Source: Syntrophus aciditrophicus SB
Lineage (GTDB): Bacteria > Desulfobacterota > Syntrophia > Syntrophales > Syntrophaceae
Assembly: GCF_000013405.1 (NCBI RefSeq)
Contig: NC_007759.1
Location: 1,861,001-1,925,000, forward strand
Direction: 5' to 3'
DNA: 64,000 bases
The position numbers and the translations under genes were made by a program. The notes below the pieces were generated by a model. The model was given only the letters and a program-made list of their open reading frames with translations, had not been told where the DNA came from and did no database searches. Shown here piece after piece: positions 25,424-58,252 of this stretch. Each line of letters begins with the position of its first letter. The stretch's first letter is position 1.

Positions 25424-26236
25424 TTACTCTTTGACAGACGTGCAGCCGGGATTCTGTTTGACCATTTCCGGATAGCGATCGCCTGCATTCTGAAGTTTCT
25501 TCTGAAGAGTGTATGCGTCGCGGATTTCGATGAGATGTTTGATCTCCCTTACAGTCTGTTCGTACTGATCCAGAATGGCGGGCAGATAGGGATTTCGAGT
25601 GAGGATCTCGGAATACATGCGTGCGTTGTGACTGAACACTTCCTTGATGATAAGGATTTTTTCCTCGAAAATCGGAGTCGTGAAGGGTTTTAGCTTCTGG
25701 ATATCCGTATCCAGCGCTTCCATAACCATTCCGAAGATTATGGTATTGAAATGATTCAAGCCCTGGATGATGCTCATGAATCGATCATGCTCCTCAGGAG
25801 TGGTCTCCACCAGACAGGCTCCATTCTTTTGCAGGAGCGTCTTCAGCCAGGCGAGCCATGATCCGTTTCCGGTCCGTGCCGGGCAGAGAACGAAGGAATA
25901 GCCATTCATTGACGGAACTTCAGGTCCAAAAAGGGGATGACAGCCGATTACGTCGCAATCGGCACAGCTCAGCATGGCCGCTACCGGCTCAGCCTTGAGG
26001 GAAGTGATGTCCATAAGCAGAGCTTCCTTTGCCATAACGGGCCCGATCTTTTCGATCACGTCTACCGTGGCACTGATAGGTACGCTTACAACGACGACCT
26101 GACACCTCGCTCCCATCTCGTCAAGACTCATTCCCTTATCGATATCGGAAATATGGACTGTGTGGCCTTCCATTTCAAAAAAACGGGCAAACCAACGCCC
26201 CATATCCCCCTTGCCGCCGATGATGCCGATTTCCAT
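25424..26236 (-). CDS. tyrA: Prephenate dehydrogenase
   Basis: 270-residue TyrA-type dehydrogenase, converting prephenate to 4-hydroxyphenylpyruvate with NAD(P)+ for tyrosine. N-terminal Rossmann motif GIIGGKGDMGRWFARFF; substrate-side motif CHPLFGPEVPSMNGYSFVLCP (His and Gly of the active site); helical C-terminal dimerisation domain with QGLNHFNTIIFGMVMEA. No chorismate mutase or ACT domain is attached. It is the last gene of the 15-kb aromatic cluster, downstream of aroC. The phenylalanine-branch enzyme prephenate dehydratase is not in the window. Confidence 0.93.
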   Translation of the reverse strand: MEIGIIGGKGDMGRWFARFFEMEGHTVHISDIDKGMSLDEMGARCQVVVVSVPISATVDVIEKIGPVMAKEALLMDITSLKAEPVAAMLSCADCDVIGCHPLFGPEVPSMNGYSFVLCPARTGNGSWLAWLKTLLQKNGACLVETTPEEHDRFMSIIQGLNHFNTIIFGMVMEALDTDIQKLKPFTTPIFEEKILIIKEVFSHNARMYSEILTRNPYLPAILDQYEQTVREIKHLIEIRDAYTLQKKLQNAGDRYPEMVKQNPGCTSVKE

Positions 26237-26399
26237 GGTTCCGCCGTATTCCTCCTTGATCGAATATCCTGTCAGAGCACTCTTTGGGGTGTCTGGTTCC
26301 CGGCTCTTCGATTTTTTCGTTTATGATATCAATTTTTTCCCTGTTCCCCGCAGCCGTCGAATCTCCCCGGTCAAGGCCCTGCTTTATCGCAGCGATCAC
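26175..26399 (-). other. Possible short ORF bridging aroC and tyrA
   Basis: A 74-codon frame starts at an ATG that overlaps the aroC stop (ATGA) and runs 62 bp into tyrA in another frame. Only residues 1-50 are outside tyrA. GNREKIDIINEKIEE resembles the first helix of an AroQ chorismate mutase (REKIDEINEKI), so this could be a decayed mutase segment once joined to tyrA. It may equally be chance. Confidence 0.2.
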
Positions 26400-27460
26400 A
26401 GGGTTACAGCCTTCTGCCGCAGGAGGAAATCCGCCAGGACAATCTGCACCATCGCCTCGCAGACGGGAATGATTCGTGGAATCACGCAGACATCATGTCT
26501 GCCGCCGATCGACAGCGTTACCGGGTTGCCCTCCCTATCGACGGTCTTTTGAGAGCGGGAAATGGACGGAATGGGTTTGCAGGCCACACGCATGTTAATC
26601 TGCTCCCCATTGGTGATTCCCGCCAGAATTCCACCGGAAGCATTAGCCAGAAAGCCGCCGGGACTCAGAGGATCGTTGCTTTCCGATCCCTTCATGCCTG
26701 CTACAGCAAACCCGGCGCCGATTTCTACGCCTTTAACGGTACCGATGCTCATGAGAGCGCCGGCCAGCTGTGCATCCATCTTGTCGAAAACAGGCTCCCC
26801 AAGACCAGCCGGGCATCCTCTCACAACAATGCCTACAATCCCGCCCAGGGAGTCTCCAGCATTTCGGGCCTCTTCCAGGCGTCCCGTCATCCTGCGTGCC
26901 GCTTCCTGATCCGGACAGCACAGGGGATTTGCCAGAGATTCCCTGTTGACTGTCGTCCCGCTTTCGGAGATAGAAACCCCGCCAAGAGCGATCGTATAGG
27001 CCAGAACATCAATTCCGGCAGCCGCCGTCACCAGTGCGGCCACGGCACCGGCCGCCACACGCGCCGCCGTCTCCCGTCCCGAAGCCCGGCCCCCTCCCCG
27101 ATGATCCCGGAGGCCATACTTTTTGAAATAGGTGTAATCCCCGTGACCGGGACGAAAGATGTTGCGCAGGCCGTCATAGGCCCCGCTGTTCGCATCCCGG
27201 TTGCGGATCAGCAGTGCAATGGGCGTTCCCGTCGTTCTCCCTTCAAACACGCCTGAAAGGATTTCAATCCGGTCAGTCTCCTGCCTGGGCGTCGCAAAGG
27301 CCCCGACACCCGGTTTTCTACGGTCCAGTGCAGCCTGAATGTGCTGTTCCGACAGTCCGAGTCCCGGCGGGCAGCCGTCAATCACCGCGCCGATGGCGCC
27401 GCCGTGCGACTCTCCCCAGGTCGTCACCCGGAAGACGTTTCCTATGGTATTTCCCGACAT
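26396..27460 (-). CDS. aroC: Chorismate synthase
   Basis: 354-residue chorismate synthase, which converts EPSP to chorismate with reduced FMN. The N-terminal signature TTWGESHGGAIGAVIDGCPPG, the GRASGRETAARVAAGAVA stretch and the C-terminal RHDVCVIPRIIPV are complete. GGGG lies 7-8 bp before the ATG. Cluster position: 55 bp after aroK and just before tyrA, so the common precursor and the first branch enzyme are made together. Confidence 0.96.
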   Translation of the reverse strand: MSGNTIGNVFRVTTWGESHGGAIGAVIDGCPPGLGLSEQHIQAALDRRKPGVGAFATPRQETDRIEILSGVFEGRTTGTPIALLIRNRDANSGAYDGLRNIFRPGHGDYTYFKKYGLRDHRGGGRASGRETAARVAAGAVAALVTAAAGIDVLAYTIALGGVSISESGTTVNRESLANPLCCPDQEAARRMTGRLEEARNAGDSLGGIVGIVVRGCPAGLGEPVFDKMDAQLAGALMSIGTVKGVEIGAGFAVAGMKGSESNDPLSPGGFLANASGGILAGITNGEQINMRVACKPIPSISRSQKTVDREGNPVTLSIGGRHDVCVIPRIIPVCEAMVQIVLADFLLRQKAVTL

Positions 27461-27515
27461 GCTTTTATCCCCGGTTACTGATGAAGTTTTTATGATTCTC
27501 GTTCAATATTTTATT

Positions 27516-28103
27516 TTAAACATTGAACCTTTGTGACTGAAATCGGCGCAGAATTTCATCGACAATTTCCGCAGTCGATATCTGAGAGGTGTCAATAATC
27601 TGATCCGCCAGCACTCTATATATGGGCATGCGCTGCTTCAGAATCTCCGTCGTTTCTTTTCTCATAGTCTCTTCAGATATTTCAGTCGAAGCCTTACCCG
27701 AAAAGGACGGTCTTTGTTCCCGGCTTGCGGGATCGTTCAATATCCGTCGGACAATAATCTCTTCCGAAGCCGTCAGCAGGACGACCCACCCCAGAGATTT
27801 CAACACCTCGGCATTTTTCGGATCCAGCACCGCGCCGCCCCCTGTCGCCAGAACGCAACGACGCAATCCGTCCAGAGATGAAATCGCCGCTCTTTCCCTC
27901 TCCCGGAAAAAGGCCCAGCCTTCCCTGGCAACCATATCCCGAATGGATCGTCCTTCCCGCTTTTCGATCAGGACATCGGTATCATGAAAAGGCCGGTGCA
28001 GTCTTCTGGCAAGTTCCTGTCCGACAGAAGTTTTGCCTGTTCCCCGATAGCCGATGAGGATAATGTTCCGGTCGTCATTCTCGGTCTCGGTCATTCGAAT
28101 CAT
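27516..28103 (-). CDS. aroK: Shikimate kinase
   Basis: 195 residues, phosphorylating shikimate at O3. Walker A GYRGTGKTS (18-26), DTDVLIEKREGRSI (shikimate-binding Asp and Arg) and GGGAVLDPKN (GGG motif) are present. A lid segment carries the essential Arg (REQRPSF). It starts 12 bp after the aroA stop with AAAGGG upstream. Met4 (28094) is an alternative start; the extra acidic N-terminus is short. Confidence 0.94.
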   Translation of the reverse strand: MIRMTETENDDRNIILIGYRGTGKTSVGQELARRLHRPFHDTDVLIEKREGRSIRDMVAREGWAFFRERERAAISSLDGLRRCVLATGGGAVLDPKNAEVLKSLGWVVLLTASEEIIVRRILNDPASREQRPSFSGKASTEISEETMRKETTEILKQRMPIYRVLADQIIDTSQISTAEIVDEILRRFQSQRFNV

Positions 28104-28115
28104 CTGTGTCCCTTT

Positions 28116-29375
28116 TTAAGCCAGTTTCTTGAGTTCATCCCAGAATCCGGGAAAGGATTTCCGCACACAGTCACGATCCGCTATGTTGATCTCTGGAACG
28201 ACGAGTCCAGCCACGGCAAAGCTCATGGCGATCCGATGATCATTGTAAGTCTCGATATCACCGCCATGGGGATGCCCGCCGTCGATAATCAGGCCGTCCA
28301 GCGTTTCCTGCGCGGCGATTCCAATCCTCGACAATTCCCTGGCCAGGGCAGCCAGGCGGTTGCTCTCCTTGATGCGCAGATGAGCAGCCTCTGTAATGAC
28401 GGTGCGTCCCGACCGGAACGCGGCAAGAACAGCCAGCGACGGCACCATGTCCGGGATGTCTCCCATGGGAAGGATCAGATCGCCGGCGTGCAGCTTTTCG
28501 CACGCCACTTCCACGCCTTTCTCGTTCCAAGATACGGCGCAGCCCAGATTCTGCAGAATTTTCAGGAAACGGGCGTCACCCTGTGAGCTTTCCGCCGTCA
28601 GACCGGGCACCTGGACTCGCCCCAGCCCCAGGGCCGCGGCAAGGAAAAAATAGGAGGCGCTGGAGAAATCTCCTTCAATGTCAAAGGACTGCGCCACATA
28701 TGATTGGCCGGCAGCGACAAAAAACGCTTTTCCATATTGCCTTCCGACAGAGATCCCGAAGTGTTCCATCACCTTAAGGGTCATTTCGATATAAGGCTCG
28801 GAGACGGTCCGGCCGGCGAGCATTATTTTTACGTTGCGTGCCGCATAGGGACTGCTGATAAGCAGGGACGAAATATACTGGCTGCTGTCCAGATCGGCAA
28901 AGAAAGCACGCCCTCCGGGAAGTCCCCGCGTCGTAATGTGGATAGGAGGACATCCCGGATTTTCAGGCGTATCGATGAATACGCCCATGCAGCGCAAAAC
29001 CTGCAGCAGCGGCTCAACCGGCCGTTCTCGAAGACGGGGTGACCCGTCAAGGACAAAGCCTCCTTCCCCAAGACAGACCAGTGTGGTCAGAAACCGCAAC
29101 GCCGTTCCATTATTTCCCAGATAAATCCTCTGATCGGGAACTTGAAGACGACCTCCGGTGCCGGTAATCCGGATTTCACTTCCTTCAACCTGAATGAACG
29201 CTCCCAGAAGTTCCAGGGCTTTCATGAGATACCGGGTATCTTCCGCGATCAGGGCATTCCGCAGCAGGGATTCACCGTTCGCCAGTGCCGCAATGGTCAA
29301 AGCCCGTTGTGTGATGCTTTTCGATCCGGGGACTTGAAGAATTACCCTTCGATTTGATCGATTGTCAGGACTCAT
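28116..29375 (-). CDS. aroA: EPSP synthase (3-phosphoshikimate 1-carboxyvinyltransferase)
   Basis: 419 residues of the normal two-domain EPSP synthase, joining PEP to shikimate-3-phosphate. Visible: VPGSKSITQRALTIAALANGES at the start (substrate Lys and Arg), LGNNGTALRFL (the NAGTA/NGT-A-R site, here GNNGTALRF) and RIKESNRLAALARELSRIG. The ATG at 29375 overlaps the aroE stop by 4 bp with AGGAG 5 bp upstream; the open frame extends upstream but inside aroE. Confidence 0.95.
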   Translation of the reverse strand: MSPDNRSNRRVILQVPGSKSITQRALTIAALANGESLLRNALIAEDTRYLMKALELLGAFIQVEGSEIRITGTGGRLQVPDQRIYLGNNGTALRFLTTLVCLGEGGFVLDGSPRLRERPVEPLLQVLRCMGVFIDTPENPGCPPIHITTRGLPGGRAFFADLDSSQYISSLLISSPYAARNVKIMLAGRTVSEPYIEMTLKVMEHFGISVGRQYGKAFFVAAGQSYVAQSFDIEGDFSSASYFFLAAALGLGRVQVPGLTAESSQGDARFLKILQNLGCAVSWNEKGVEVACEKLHAGDLILPMGDIPDMVPSLAVLAAFRSGRTVITEAAHLRIKESNRLAALARELSRIGIAAQETLDGLIIDGGHPHGGDIETYNDHRIAMSFAVAGLVVPEINIADRDCVRKSFPGFWDELKKLA

Positions 29376-30250
29376 CTCTGCTCCTTTTCCGCTTTCTCCA
29401 GTTGATTCCGCACAACCTGCCGCATCAGATCCACCGGGGGCTCCAGTCCGGTCCACAATCGAAATTGCGCCGCGCCCTGTTCAACAAACATCTCCACTCC
29501 GGACAGGACCGTACAGCCGGCCCGCTCCGCTTCCCGCAGAAGCCGTGTACGCAGGGGGGTGTATATCACATCGGCGACCAAACTGAAACGGCTGAGCACT
29601 GCGGAAGGGACGGGAGAAACCTCCGTATTCGGCGTCATCCCGACAGGAGTCGTGTTGATCAGAACATCGCCCTGCAGGGTATCAATTTCCGTCAAGGGGT
29701 AAGAAGGGCATCCGAAATCATCAGCAAGTTCGCGTCCGCGTTTTTCGGTGCGATTGACCACCACAGCCCCTCCTCCTTCTCCAAGGATTCCGTACAGGGC
29801 CGCCCGCGCCGTCCCGCCCGCGCCCAGAACGACAAAACGCCGACCCCGGATCGATGTCACGCTTCGCAAAGCCCGGATCAGTCCCTCCCAGTCCGTATTG
29901 GCACCCACAAATCCATCGCCCCGTCGGATCAGTGTGTTCACGGCGCCGATGGAACGTGCCTGCTCATCAATATCATCAAGAAATGACATGATGTCTCTTT
30001 TGTAGGGAATCGTCACGCTGGCCCCCCGGAATCCCTTCCGTTTCAGATCAACCATGGCCTGACTCAGATCGGAAACGTCCCAGGCTTCATATCGACCTTC
30101 CAGATGAAGATGTTTCAAAGCGGTGGAATGCATGAGGGGGGAAAGACTGTGCCCGACCGGATGGCCAAGCAGTGCGAGGAGAATCGGAGTTCGGAATGAA
30201 TCCGGGAGAGTTGTCCCTAAGGGGCTAAAGTCATCAGGGGAGTTGTTCAT
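29372..30250 (-). CDS. aroE: Shikimate dehydrogenase
   Basis: 292 residues; reduces 3-dehydroshikimate to shikimate with NADPH. Substrate motif GHPVGHSLSPLMHSTAL, catalytic Lys in SVTIPYKRDI, and NADP-binding GAGGTARAALYGIL followed by VVNRTEKRG (Arg for the 2'-phosphate). The ATG at 30250 has GGGAGG upstream and lies 17 bp inside the end of the preceding aroD fusion gene, so translation is coupled. Confidence 0.95.
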   Translation of the reverse strand: MNNSPDDFSPLGTTLPDSFRTPILLALLGHPVGHSLSPLMHSTALKHLHLEGRYEAWDVSDLSQAMVDLKRKGFRGASVTIPYKRDIMSFLDDIDEQARSIGAVNTLIRRGDGFVGANTDWEGLIRALRSVTSIRGRRFVVLGAGGTARAALYGILGEGGGAVVVNRTEKRGRELADDFGCPSYPLTEIDTLQGDVLINTTPVGMTPNTEVSPVPSAVLSRFSLVADVIYTPLRTRLLREAERAGCTVLSGVEMFVEQGAAQFRLWTGLEPPVDLMRQVVRNQLEKAEKEQR

Positions 30251-31352
30251 CGACAGCCTCCCCGTTTCCCGTCTGAACTCGGTGCGCCTTCCGGAAACCT
30301 TCCTTGCTTTTAAGTTCCTCTGAGGTGTTGCCACCCAGAATTTCAAGTATCCTGAGCAGTTCCGCCGCGGTCAGTTGACCTGGAGCCGTAGCTGATTCCT
30401 GTCCCAGCGAAGCGAATGTAAAATGCGCCCCCAGGAGAGGCGACATGACCCGGCTTATCTTTCCCAGTTCTCCCATGGAGAAGGCGACAATTTCCTGTCC
30501 TTTCCCCAGAGACCATGGAATGAGCCGCAATACGCGAAGGTTATCGGCCATCGTACGGGCAAAGGTGACAATCTTGATGACACGCGCCCCGGCTTCCCGG
30601 CAGCCCCTCCAGAGATCCTCCAGGGCGGCATCGGAGGGCGTTTCATGAAAATTGTGGCAGGAAATAATAAGCTGCGTTCGCCCGAGATGTTCCGCGATAA
30701 GCTCATTTAACGAATCCCGCAGGACTGGAGACGTGGACAATTCAATATCCACGTAATCGACACCCAGCAGAATTGCCTCCTTCAACACGGCAATCCGCGC
30801 TTCCTCAGCTATTTCTTCCCCGGGCGTCTGAAGGCTTCCGCTTTCTTCCCTTCTGCGGTGGGTTGCCACGATCTTGACGGGAAAGGGGTTTCTTCGAATC
30901 TCCCCGACCAGTTCCTTCAGGCTGCCTTCTTCGATCAGATCCAGCCTCAGTTCCAGCAGGTCCGCAAGAGGCGCAGCCGCGTGAATCTGTCGAATCGCCT
31001 CATCCCGCTCTGATCCCACGACAGGAATGCAGATCCTTACCCTGCCCAGCCCTTCCCGTTTCTGCCAGGGAAGAAGCGAAGTCATCAGCGTATTCTGCAG
31101 GTAGCGGGATGCGGCCACCACGTGGCCAAAAATTGCGGAGAGCACGGAAACCGGCATTGGACCGTTATTATAGTGCGCGAGTCGGCTGTAAACCTGTTCC
31201 TCCTGCACCGGATCATAGATTTCCATCCCCAGGTCGGCTTTTGTCCTTCCGATTTCCAGGGCCAGAACAGCCCTTTCATTGAGAAGTTGAACAATCCTGT
31301 TGTCCATGTTCTGAATGGATTTCCGAAGATCATCCAGAGATCGGCCGGTCAT
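30234..31352 (-). CDS. aroD: Chorismate mutase (AroQ) fused to type I 3-dehydroquinate dehydratase (AroD)
   Basis: 372 residues, two enzymes in one chain. Residues 1-90 are an AroQ chorismate mutase: R10, R27, K38, D47, E51 and Q86 line up with the E. coli active site. Residues 104-335 are a type I dehydroquinase with His233 (SCHNFHE), Schiff-base Lys260 (ARVIKIVTF) and the ELRLD and VDIEL barrel strands. The two reactions are not consecutive: dehydroquinase is step 3 and mutase acts on the end product chorismate. The hydrophilic tail after about 340 overlaps aroE. It overlaps aroB by 4 bp. Confidence in both domains is high; co-regulation or channelling is only a guess. Confidence 0.92.
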   Translation of the reverse strand: MTGRSLDDLRKSIQNMDNRIVQLLNERAVLALEIGRTKADLGMEIYDPVQEEQVYSRLAHYNNGPMPVSVLSAIFGHVVAASRYLQNTLMTSLLPWQKREGLGRVRICIPVVGSERDEAIRQIHAAAPLADLLELRLDLIEEGSLKELVGEIRRNPFPVKIVATHRRREESGSLQTPGEEIAEEARIAVLKEAILLGVDYVDIELSTSPVLRDSLNELIAEHLGRTQLIISCHNFHETPSDAALEDLWRGCREAGARVIKIVTFARTMADNLRVLRLIPWSLGKGQEIVAFSMGELGKISRVMSPLLGAHFTFASLGQESATAPGQLTAAELLRILEILGGNTSEELKSKEGFRKAHRVQTGNGEAVDEQLP

Positions 31353-32443
31353 GCTTTCATTTCCTCCAGAACTTTTTCCAGATGAGATTTTTCGACGCCC
31401 TTAGTGATAAAGGGTATGCCGATTTTTTTCAACAGCACGAAGGGCAGTTCGCTCCCTTCCTTCTTTTTGTCCATCTGGAGACGCTCCAGCACATTTGATT
31501 GCGGAAAACTTTCCGGAATGCGAACAGGAAGGCCGAGGTCGCGAATCATGTTTTCGATTCGATCTCTTTCCTCCAAAGACAGATAACCGGACTGGACTGA
31601 AATGCCTGAAGCAGCGATCATGCCCAGGGCGACAGCCTTTCCGTGAGCAAGGGTAAAATTCGAGGAGGCCTCCAGGGCATGGCCGATGGTATGACCATAA
31701 TTGAGGATGCGGCGAAATCCCGATTCCTGCTCATCGATTTCCACGACCCCTTTTTTAATCCGACAGGACTGTTCAATGACCTTTTTCAGTACCTCCAGGT
31801 TTCTTTCTCGTATAGCCGGAACTTCCCTTTCGAGCAGCTCAAAGAATCCCGGTTCGTCGATCACCCCGTATTTTACGATTTCCGCCACACCGTTGAGATA
31901 TTCATCATCGGAAAGAGTTTCCAGGAATTTCAGGTCGGTAAAAATCCGCTTCGGCTGATAGAAGGTTCCCAGGAGGTTCTTCCCCTGCGGCAGATTGACA
32001 GCCGTTTTTCCGCCGATGCTGCTGTCCACCTGTGCCATCAGCGTCGTGGGTATCTGAATAAAAGGAACGGAACGCATGTAAATTGAGGCGACAAACCCTG
32101 TCAGATCGCCCACCACTCCGCCGCCAAGGGCAAGCAGCAGAGAATGACGATCGACTCCCCGCTCCAGAAGCCGGGAGGTAAGGGCAAGGACGGTATCCAT
32201 GGTTTTCGAGCCTTCGCCGGCGGGAAATTCGAGGAGTTCAGCCGGCAGTCCCAATTCCCTGAGCTTTTCGAGAAACGTCTTACCATACAGTCCGGATACA
32301 TTGGAATCGGTAACGATGACGTAACGGTTTGCCGGATGCTCTTTCGCGATCAAAAGACCGATGCGATCCTGGAAATCATAACCGATACAAATTTCATGAG
32401 TCTCGGAGAGGCGTTTGTCCAGATGAACCTTGATCCTCTTCAT
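31349..32443 (-). CDS. aroB: 3-dehydroquinate synthase
   Basis: 364 residues, normal AroB. It cyclises DAHP to 3-dehydroquinate using NAD+ and a divalent metal. Motifs: [25 protein letters not shown] (nucleotide binding), [18 protein letters not shown], and metal ligands in [12 protein letters not shown]. It overlaps both neighbours by 4 bp (ATGA), so aroF, aroB and the aroD fusion form one translationally coupled unit. Confidence 0.96.
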
Positions 32444-33468
32444 GCCGGCACCTTCGTCGTCATATTCAGTACATATTCCATTGTTTTAAGCTCTTCCATC
32501 AGCTCATAGAACTTCTCCGGTGTGAGAGACTGCGCACCGTCACAGAACGCCTTTTCCGGCTGAGGATGCATCTCCACAATCACTCCGTCCGCGCCGACGG
32601 CAAGCGCCGCCCGACTCAGTGGGATGACATATTTCCAGTGCCCCGTCGCATGACTGGGATCGATGATGACCGGCAGATGGGTCAGTTCCTTCAGCACGGG
32701 CACGGCGCTGATGTCCAGGGTATTGCGCGTTGCCGTCTCAAAAGTCCGTATCCCCCGCTCACAGAGGATCACCTGGTCATTGCCTGCGGACAGGATATAC
32801 TCCGCGGACATCAACAGTTCCTCTATAGTGGTCATCATCCCTCTTTTCAGGAGAACGGGCTTGCGTGATCTGCCGATTTTTTTCAAAAGAGCAAAGTTCT
32901 GGACATTCCGGGCTCCCACCTGAAGGATGTCGGTATAGGCCTCAACCAGGTCCAGGTCCTCGGGATTCACGATCTCCGTCACCACGGGCAGCCCTGTTTT
33001 TTCACGGGCTTTCGCGAGCAGTTTCAAGCCATCCTCTTCCATCCCCTGAAAACTGTATGGCGATGTCCGGGGTTTAAAGGCACCCCCGCGCAGAATCCGG
33101 CCTCCGCCCTTCCGGACGATGTAGGCGCTTTCCAGCAACTGTTCCTCGCTTTCTACGGAACAGGGCCCGGCCATGACAACGAATTCTCCCGAGCCGATCC
33201 GGACATCACCCACATGGACGACAGTATCCTCCTCTTTTGCCTCTCGACTTGTCAGCTTGTACGGTTTACGGATCGGGACAACCTTTTCCACGCCGGAAAG
33301 CGCGGCCAGATATTTCAGTTCCTCTCCACCGCGCTCACCCCCTACAGCCTTGACTACCGTCTGTTCCGTGCCGTTGGAACGATGAGCCCTGTATCCAATG
33401 GACTCCACCCAGCGGACGACATGATCGATCTGAGTTTCCGTTGCGTTTCTTTTCATGACGATAATCAT
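32440..33468 (-). CDS. aroF: DAHP synthase, type I-beta with N-terminal regulatory domain
   Basis: 342 residues; condenses PEP and erythrose-4-phosphate, the first committed step. An N-terminal ferredoxin-like/ACT-like domain (about 1-75, [18 protein letters not shown]) precedes the barrel. It has the layout of the Thermotoga-type AroA-I-beta enzymes, where this domain mediates Tyr/Phe feedback. Barrel motifs: [35 protein letters not shown] and [13 protein letters not shown]. The ATG at 33468 has AAGGAG 9 bp upstream; the frame stays open into the upstream hairpin, which is not coding. First gene of the aro half, behind an attenuator-type leader. Confidence 0.95.
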
Positions 33469-33521: not shown

Positions 33522-33558
33522 CAAAAATGGCCACGGTGCTGTCTGCCGCCGTGGCCAT
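33522..33558 (-). terminator. Second aro leader terminator
   Basis: Perfect 10-bp stem: ATGGCCACGG (plus-strand 33527-33536) and CCGTGGCCAT (33549-33558), 12-nt loop. On the minus strand it is followed by TTTTTG. It lies between the first leader terminator and the aroF ribosome binding site, so transcripts passing the first hairpin meet a second one. Confidence 0.8.
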
Positions 33559-33563
33559 AAACC

Positions 33564-33601
33564 GAAAAAGCCATGGGCAGCGTCTGATCTGCCCATGGCT
33601 T
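33564..33601 (-). terminator. First aro leader terminator (attenuator)
   Basis: Perfect 13-bp stem: minus-strand 5' arm AAGCCATGGGCAG (33601-33589) and 3' arm CTGCCCATGGCTT (33580-33568), 8-nt loop, followed by TTTTT. It begins about 20 nt after the stop codon of the aromatic leader peptide, the usual position of an attenuator. Confidence 0.88.
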
Positions 33602-33645
33602 GGTGTTTTAATCTATTAGTTCAACCCACCCGAAGCAATGGACAG
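33589..33645 (-). promoter_or_regulatory. Predicted antiterminator of the aro attenuator
   Basis: The leader-peptide codons at 33645-33633 read CTGTCCATTGCTT, the same as the terminator 3' arm except for two bases. They can pair with the terminator's 5' arm (33601-33589) in 11 Watson-Crick pairs, one G-U and one mismatch, with a 31-nt loop. This structure and the terminator exclude each other. The segment starts 8 nt after the last control Phe codon. A ribosome stalled in the aromatic run would leave most of it free, while one at the stop codon would cover it. Confidence 0.7.
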
Positions 33646-33713
33646 ATCTTCAGAAAAAAATACCAATAATAGCTAAAATACTTGGAATTGTTTCTTTCGA
33701 CTGCTCTGTCCAT
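33621..33713 (-). CDS. Aromatic leader peptide controlling the aro operon
   Basis: 30-codon leader peptide with the control run YFSYYWYFF at codons 12-20: four Tyr, three Phe, one Trp and a Ser. It is preceded by an AGGA ribosome binding site 8 bp from the ATG, and a promoter lies about 90 bp upstream. It is followed after 20 nt by an intrinsic terminator. Density of aromatic codons this high is what ribosome-mediated attenuators use. Its position directly before DAHP synthase implies that shortage of any aromatic amino acid opens the shikimate genes. No homologue was searched for. Confidence 0.85.
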   Translation of the reverse strand: MDRAVERNNSKYFSYYWYFFLKICPLLRVG

Positions 33714-33803
33714 CACGTTTTCCTGTCTCCGCTCCCCCTCTTTTAAGGGGAATCTTGCAGCGTCCCCGCCCGTATCCTCTTCATACAATTTCGAATGGTG
33801 GGA

Positions 33804-33832
33804 ATCAAATCATAAAGCTGCTGCCTTGTCAA
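33804..33832 (-). promoter_or_regulatory. Promoter of the aro half of the cluster
   Basis: On the minus strand, TTGACA (33832-33827), a 17-bp spacer and TTTGAT (33809-33804), just past the trpA stop. Predicted start near 33797, about 84 nt before the leader-peptide ATG. It gives the shikimate genes their own transcript apart from trp. Confidence 0.6.
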
Positions 33833-58093: not shown

Positions 58094-58122
58094 TTGACAA
58101 ACATGATTTCTTGATGCTTAAT
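58094..58122 (+). promoter_or_regulatory. Promoter of the ktr operon
   Basis: TTGACA (58094-58099) with TTAATG about 18 bp downstream (58118-58123). The start would fall near 58128, exactly where the riboswitch aptamer begins. Confidence 0.5.
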
Positions 58123-58126
58123 GCAT

Positions 58127-58252
58127 GGCGCTTAATCCTCGATTCAAGAGGAGCGGGGGACCCGTTCTCCTGGGGCGTATCGCCATTTGGCGTAGGGCAC
58201 CTCTTCGGCCCGAGCCCGTCAGCTAACCTCGCAGGCATCGATGAGGGGACTC
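58127..58252 (+). promoter_or_regulatory. c-di-AMP riboswitch (ydaO/yuaA class)
   Basis: Conserved blocks of the ydaO/yuaA motif occur in order: CGCTTAATC (58129), AGCGGGGGACCC (58152), TGGGGCGTATCGCC with GGCGTAGGGC after it, and GCCCGTCAGCTAACCTCGCA (around 58214-58233), ending GATGAGGGG. These are the aptamer segments that bind c-di-AMP. About 190 nt separate it from the potassium transporter start. No clean terminator was identified there, so the switching mechanism (Rho, translation or other) is open. c-di-AMP normally turns these genes off. Confidence 0.88.

Follow-up and report, generated by a model that had tools for sequence, protein, structure and literature searches.

In the hisL attenuator, six segments (A to F) form a chain in which the pairings A:B, C:D, and E:F alternate with B:C and D:E; of the three hairpins, the last alone acts as a terminator. 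The leaders of ilvGMEDA and thr each sense several end products with one leader, the amino acids concerned being non-aromatic. For the aromatic pathway, Neshat et al. reportedly dealt with an attenuator at aroR-aroF of Corynebacterium glutamicum in 2014. According to PMC11802643, this attenuator is an experimental one, its leader carries Phe-Tyr-Phe, and limitation of Phe acts on it and limitation of Tyr does not; it is given as a prediction in PMC4046766. The uORFC-13-1 motif before aroF has a Phe run only and is confined to Acholeplasma and environmental sequences, with 24 representatives (PMC8632094), and the attenuators given for tyrA supraoperons in the accessible portion of PMC1173090 are structure predictions for which no leader peptide is named there. 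Herein, we analyzed a window of 64,000 nucleotides of Syntrophus aciditrophicus SB (contig NC_007759.1, positions 1,861,001 to 1,925,000) and, within it, the leader region that lies between trpA and aroF, the first gene of a shikimate operon. Coordinates are window positions, and the features are on the minus strand unless otherwise stated.

The original prediction, made from the letters of this window, proposed a leader-peptide attenuator that senses Phe, Tyr, and Trp together. It added that each known attenuator responds to a single amino acid, a statement contradicted by the multi-amino-acid ilvGMEDA and thr leaders. Its further remark that no equivalent had been described was too strong, considering aroR-aroF of C. 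glutamicum (PMC11802643, PMC4046766) and uORFC-13-1 of Acholeplasma (PMC8632094). The proposal itself fared well. The region combines a leader open reading frame (ORF) rich in end-product codons, an intrinsic terminator before the first structural gene, a covarying antiterminator that shares the 5' arm of this terminator, and an operon that makes the amino acids presumed to be sensed, which are the sequence-level features of a leader-peptide attenuator. On this sequence evidence, we have little doubt that the element upstream of the aroF operon would act as a ribosome-mediated transcription attenuator sensing the charging of aromatic tRNAs.

The leader and its alternative RNA pairings

A promoter had been predicted directly after trpA, and a -35 element TTGACA (33827 to 33832) indeed lies between trpA and the leader, although the -10 element TTTGAT (33804 to 33809, 17-nt spacer) is weak; because of this weak -10, the leader promoter was not listed by a consensus promoter scan of the region. 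Of 41 divergent relatives, about 33 have an exact TTGACA, in most cases 20-45 nt ahead of the leader ATG, and TTTNAT with an equal spacer is frequent among them. A Shine-Dalgarno-like AGGA (33721 to 33724), read directly from the sequence, stands 7 nt ahead of the leader ATG. The leader ORF (33621 to 33713; sequence MDRAVERNNSKYFSYYWYFFLKICPLLRVG) has 30 codons and a stop codon and contains the control codons YFSYYWYFF (33654 to 33680), as originally predicted; it is kept in relatives. A run with eight aromatic codons in nine is unique to this leader in the six frames of the 64-kb window, for which the chance estimate was made, and did not appear in any of 10 dinucleotide shuffles; relatives average 7.1 aromatics in their best nine codons. 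Folding of the leader region gave a z of -6.1.

The RNA can be described as six segments. Terminator 1 (33568 to 33601), the pairing of segments 3 and 4 (3:4), is the perfect 13-bp hairpin that had been predicted shortly downstream of the leader; it starts 19 nt after the leader stop codon and is followed by a T run. Segment 3 (33586 to 33601) comprises the 5' arm of terminator 1 and 3 loop bases taken by the antiterminator, and segment 4 (33568 to 33580) is the 3' arm, which when freed can pair with segment 5. Segment 2 (33633 to 33648) lies in the leader codons downstream of the aromatic run, and its partner is either segment 1 or segment 3. The leader bases 33645-33633 (CTGTCCATTGCTT) had been described as a copy of the terminator 3' arm with two changes; the two differences stand, but the antiterminator 2:3 is actually longer, joining 33648-33633 with 33601-33586 by 15 of 16 pairs and reaching into the loop of terminator 1. 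The coordinates of the original prediction were correct, and what it overlooked, besides the full length of the antiterminator, was segment 1 and a second terminator. Segment 1 (33705 to 33716) covers the leader start codon and pairs with segment 2 over 12 bp, as indicated by the minimum free energy fold and by the swap test described below. Terminator 2 (5:6; 33558-33527) is a terminator-like hairpin in tandem with the first; it is also followed by a T run and is present in 73 of 81 relatives.

To assess conservation, the upstream regions of AroF orthologs were taken from 60 Syntrophales genomes and 80 named loci, which partly overlap, and paralogs and truncated contigs were set aside. The closest named relatives are Syntrophus metagenome-assembled genomes, with an AroF identity of 90%. 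Among about 145 Syntrophales sequences, all except about 5 have, ahead of aroF, a leader with at least five aromatics in nine residues (5-8), and F, Y, and W are all present in 82 of the 91 distinct leaders. Aromatic codons numbered 645 in frame versus 117 and 153 in the two alternative frames, a comparison somewhat favored by the in-frame choice of the 9-codon window. The spacing is nearly constant, with 36 nt from the run to the stop codon, 21 nt from the stop codon to terminator 1, and 10 nt between the two terminators, and 76 of 79 relatives have segment 1 over their start codon. The original prediction had called for such a comparison; within Syntrophales, relatives keep the aromatic-rich leader, the paired arms, and the promoter, and the arms covary, which supports the pan-aromatic interpretation. 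We infer that the leader is translated, that ribosomes stall on it, that transcription terminates, and that Phe, Tyr, and Trp each elicit a response of their own.

Covariation was evaluated by a partner-swap test, in which the duplex energy of each genome's own segment partners is compared with that of partners exchanged between genomes. The sample was 42 Syntrophales leaders thinned to less than about 72% similarity, with 5000 permutations. Own partners paired better for all five adjacent pairs. The z values were -6.9 for 1:2, -6.4 for 2:3, and -5.3 for 4:5, pairings on which the segments had not been selected, and -10.8 for 3:4 and -10.1 for 5:6, whose result is partly by construction given that these hairpins served to locate the segments (0 of 5000 permutations attained the observed mean in each case). 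Nine non-adjacent segment pairs showed no covariation in this test, with z from -0.3 to 1.1. Column-based pair counts were above those of shuffles for 2:3, 3:4, and 5:6.

Proposed mechanism and competing explanations

In the proposed mechanism, transcription would begin at the TTGACA promoter and the leader peptide would then be translated. With charged Phe, Tyr, and Trp tRNAs, the ribosome would get to the stop codon and mask segment 2, so that terminator 1 forms, and any read-through of terminator 1 would encounter terminator 2. In an untranslated leader, 1:2 would form and conceal the leader start codon, leaving 3:4 still free to form. When an aromatic aminoacyl-tRNA is scarce, the ribosome would stall on the Y/F/W codons, before it reaches segment 2; 2:3 would pair during the stall, segment 4 would be released to pair with segment 5, and both terminators would be disarmed in sequence, allowing transcription of aroF-aroB-aroQD-aroE-aroA-aroK-aroC-tyrA. 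The OFF state would thus consist of 1:2, 3:4, and 5:6, with two terminators, and the ON state of 2:3 and 4:5. For a ribosome halted on the aromatic codons and RNA extending to the end of segment 5, the predicted fold is 2:3 with 4:5; for a ribosome at the stop codon, or for no ribosome, it is 3:4 with 5:6. A single RNA switch integrating three end products would explain the gating of the common aromatic pathway in these anaerobes, many of them uncultured, and the tandem-terminator chain would be a testable extension of the classic attenuator.

Several observations weigh against this mechanism. The complete RNA favors 3:4 and 5:6 as the more stable fold, and the ON state must therefore be kinetic, which is also the case in classic attenuators. 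Segment 1 covers the start codon and not the control codons, and what keeps 1:2 open during the stall is not obvious; one possibility is that a queued initiating ribosome could keep segment 1 open. The fixed-column pair count for 4:5 is weak, probably due to a varying pairing register. In families beyond Syntrophales, the swap test gave a signal for the control pair 3:6 as well (z -4.3), and the 4:5 test there is partly confounded by clade structure. Finally, according to PMC11802643, the C. glutamicum aroR attenuator has both Phe and Tyr codons and reacted to Phe limitation only.

One alternative accepts the attenuator and questions its second hairpin, which could be a processing or stability element instead of a regulated terminator, with no role for 4:5. 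We regard this as possible, if the less probable account of terminator 2. It would fit the absence of terminator 2 from 8 of 81 leaders and from several families of the phylum, as well as the weak column-wise covariation of 4:5. Against it, the swap test in Syntrophales separates 4:5 (z -5.3) from the control pair 3:6 (z 0.0), and this latter value also argues against terminator 2 as a mere copy of terminator 1, because a copy would make 3:6 behave like 4:5. In addition, the hairpin is followed by a T run, and an unregulated terminator ahead of aroF would silence the operon.

Given that only one of the nine codons of this run is a Trp codon and that a separate WWW attenuator stands ahead of trpE, it could also be that only one or two aromatics (e.g., Phe and Tyr) are effectively sensed, the lone Trp codon being incidental and Trp being covered by the attenuator of the trp operon. 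The response of C. glutamicum aroR to Phe alone (PMC11802643) points the same way. However, at least one Trp codon is present in 83 of the 91 distinct Syntrophales leaders and in 28 of the 31 leaders from non-Syntrophales members of the phylum, even though this amino acid is encoded by one codon only, and we consider such restricted sensing rather unlikely.

A leader peptide of the TnaC type, in which the peptide itself stalls the ribosome on a free aromatic compound, is highly improbable. The leader C-terminus VCPSLRR is conserved across Syntrophales, as an arrest peptide would lead one to expect, but this conserved stretch corresponds to the segment 2 RNA. L045 and L053, two of the relatives, retain this RNA and read it in another frame, so it is the RNA, not the peptide, that is conserved there. 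Moreover, other families of the phylum have different C-termini with matching changes in segment 3, and neither the order nor the number of aromatics in the run is constant. The mark of TnaC-like leaders, a peptide conserved rather than its RNA, was not seen in the relatives compared. The idea that the terminators are the end of the trp operon, the leader a by-product, and aroF unregulated, was rejected with near certainty. The leader does directly follow trpA in Syntrophus, but the gene order in relatives contradicts such an artefact (leader and terminators are kept although trpA is upstream in just 8 of 145 loci) and the TTGACA promoter separates trpA from the leader. Collectively, the conserved aroF leader switch would very probably be a real sensor of aromatic amino acid shortage.

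The aroF operon and related leaders at other loci

The gene order on the minus strand is trpE-G-D-C-F-B-A, the intergenic region, aroF, aroB, an aroQ-aroD fusion, aroE, aroA, aroK, aroC, and tyrA. The first operon gene, aroF (32440 to 33468), encodes a type I 3-deoxy-D-arabino-heptulosonate 7-phosphate (DAHP) synthase (PF00793), and the genes from aroB to tyrA occupy 25424 to 32443. The original prediction that the switch gates the entry enzyme and all shikimate steps agrees with this content, in that all seven steps are present downstream of the leader, with tyrA in addition. The longest aroF ORF begins at 33558, within terminator 2; an aroF annotation from this position would be wrong, because the conserved start is the ATG at 33468. 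Elsewhere in the window, a c-di-AMP riboswitch (RF00379) at 58119-58252 of the plus strand is the sole Rfam match. Near the aroF loci of relatives, cobalamin riboswitches were observed at L012 (139-1123, minus strand) and L191 (421-594).

The switch is also conserved in many families of the phylum besides those of Syntrophales, where 26 of the 31 leaders analyzed contain F, Y, and W; their C-termini and terminator sequences differ, and the pairings are the same. In the window, a classic trp attenuator before trpE (40983-40797, minus strand) consists of the leader MRETDFIINMNWWWQASIQGFVRR and then two tandem terminator hairpins. The WWW leaders and tandem hairpins ahead of trpE are conserved in the order, where trpE leaders contain Trp only, as WWW or WWWW. 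Phe-only leaders precede a paralog of AroF that is joined to prephenate dehydratase and an ACT domain (AroF-PheA-ACT; L252 and L253). The series of Trp-only, Phe-only, and all-three leaders at trpE, the aroF-pheA fusion, and the common pathway is as codon-specific sensing predicts.

Further loci in Syntrophales were found with a covariance model of the leader and terminator 1. Phe-only leaders with the same RNA layout stand before a periplasmic binding protein of the ATP-binding cassette transporter type (PF13458; L258-L261, L263-L265, L267-L270, L272-L274, and most of L282-L305), which suggests that these loci may encode a Phe or aromatic uptake system. Phe-leaning leaders were assigned before an AMP-dependent acyl-CoA ligase (L299, L302, L308, and L310; the leader itself was not found at L308), and this ligase could possibly activate phenylacetate for Phe salvage. 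Leu-rich leaders precede the gamma subunit of a 2-oxoacid:ferredoxin oxidoreductase and leuA (L306, L307, L311, L312, L314, and L321; L304, L309, L316, and L317). At L320, a Trp leader (KFWWWQW) lies ahead of the alpha subunit of indolepyruvate ferredoxin oxidoreductase, which suggests a putative part for this enzyme in Trp supply rather than breakdown. WWWW leaders precede an outer-membrane-type protein of the Phenol_MetA_deg family (PF13557) at L262 and L285. A Tyr-run leader (SRYYYFYYYYYNMMRL) with hairpins was found before a beta-eliminating lyase in the S. aciditrophicus genome (L278; 992448-992574, plus strand) and elsewhere in Syntrophus (L275, L276, and L313). The lyase matches both tryptophanase and tyrosine phenol-lyase models; a Tyr-starvation switch at this position, if true, would suggest Tyr synthesis from phenol or TnaC-like control.

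These loci raise the prospect of an attenuator family that extends across the phylum and whose codon cassette can be exchanged, built of six alternating segments and two tandem terminators, in which the Phe+Tyr+Trp run reads total aromatic status for the shikimate operon and Phe-only, Trp-only, Tyr-only, and Leu-rich copies control other genes; the case for such a family seems to us evenly balanced. If it holds, genes usually filed as catabolic, such as the tyrosine phenol-lyase-like enzyme and indolepyruvate ferredoxin oxidoreductase, would serve amino acid supply. As the amino acid can be read from the codon run, this layout at other loci would directly suggest functions for transporters, ligases, and oxidoreductases whose annotation is poor.

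Comparison with known attenuators

The logic of 1:2, 2:3, and 3:4, with ribosome stalling at control codons, is shared with trpL and pheL of E. coli. These leaders differ in that each serves one amino acid, has its control codons within segment 1, and has a single terminator; in the present element, the start-codon region serves as segment 1, and segment 2 falls within the coding part of the leader. The alternating six-segment chain resembles that of hisL, unlike which two terminators are present, and the sensing of several end products by one leader resembles ilvGMEDA and thr, from which the present leader differs in addressing aromatic amino acids. The trpE leaders of Syntrophales are similar in having control codons, a tandem terminator pair, and similar hairpin sequences, but they carry Trp codons only and show no significant covariation of 1:2 and 4:5.

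No Rfam match was obtained for the aroF leader element at gathering or relaxed thresholds, Trp_leader, His_leader, and other curated leader families included, nor was there an Rfam match to a T-box or riboswitch in this leader. Like the aroF leader, uORFC-13-1 of Acholeplasma has a leader ORF that contains Phe codons, and a terminator, ahead of aroF; unlike it, the present leader has Tyr and Trp codons too. Among described systems, aroR-aroF of C. glutamicum comes closest; compared by its description, it likewise has a leader with aromatic codons before a DAHP synthase gene and works by transcription attenuation. It differs in its Phe-Tyr-Phe leader without Trp and in belonging to a distant phylum, and the portion of the description consulted contains no tandem-terminator chain. 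In the open-access literature searched, no description was found of a Phe+Tyr+Trp leader, of paired regulated terminators in tandem, or of a spread through the phylum, and an earlier description is possible. Leader-peptide attenuation is in itself of a known kind; what looks new is the sensor for Phe, Tyr, and Trp together, the terminators in tandem, and the distribution throughout the phylum.
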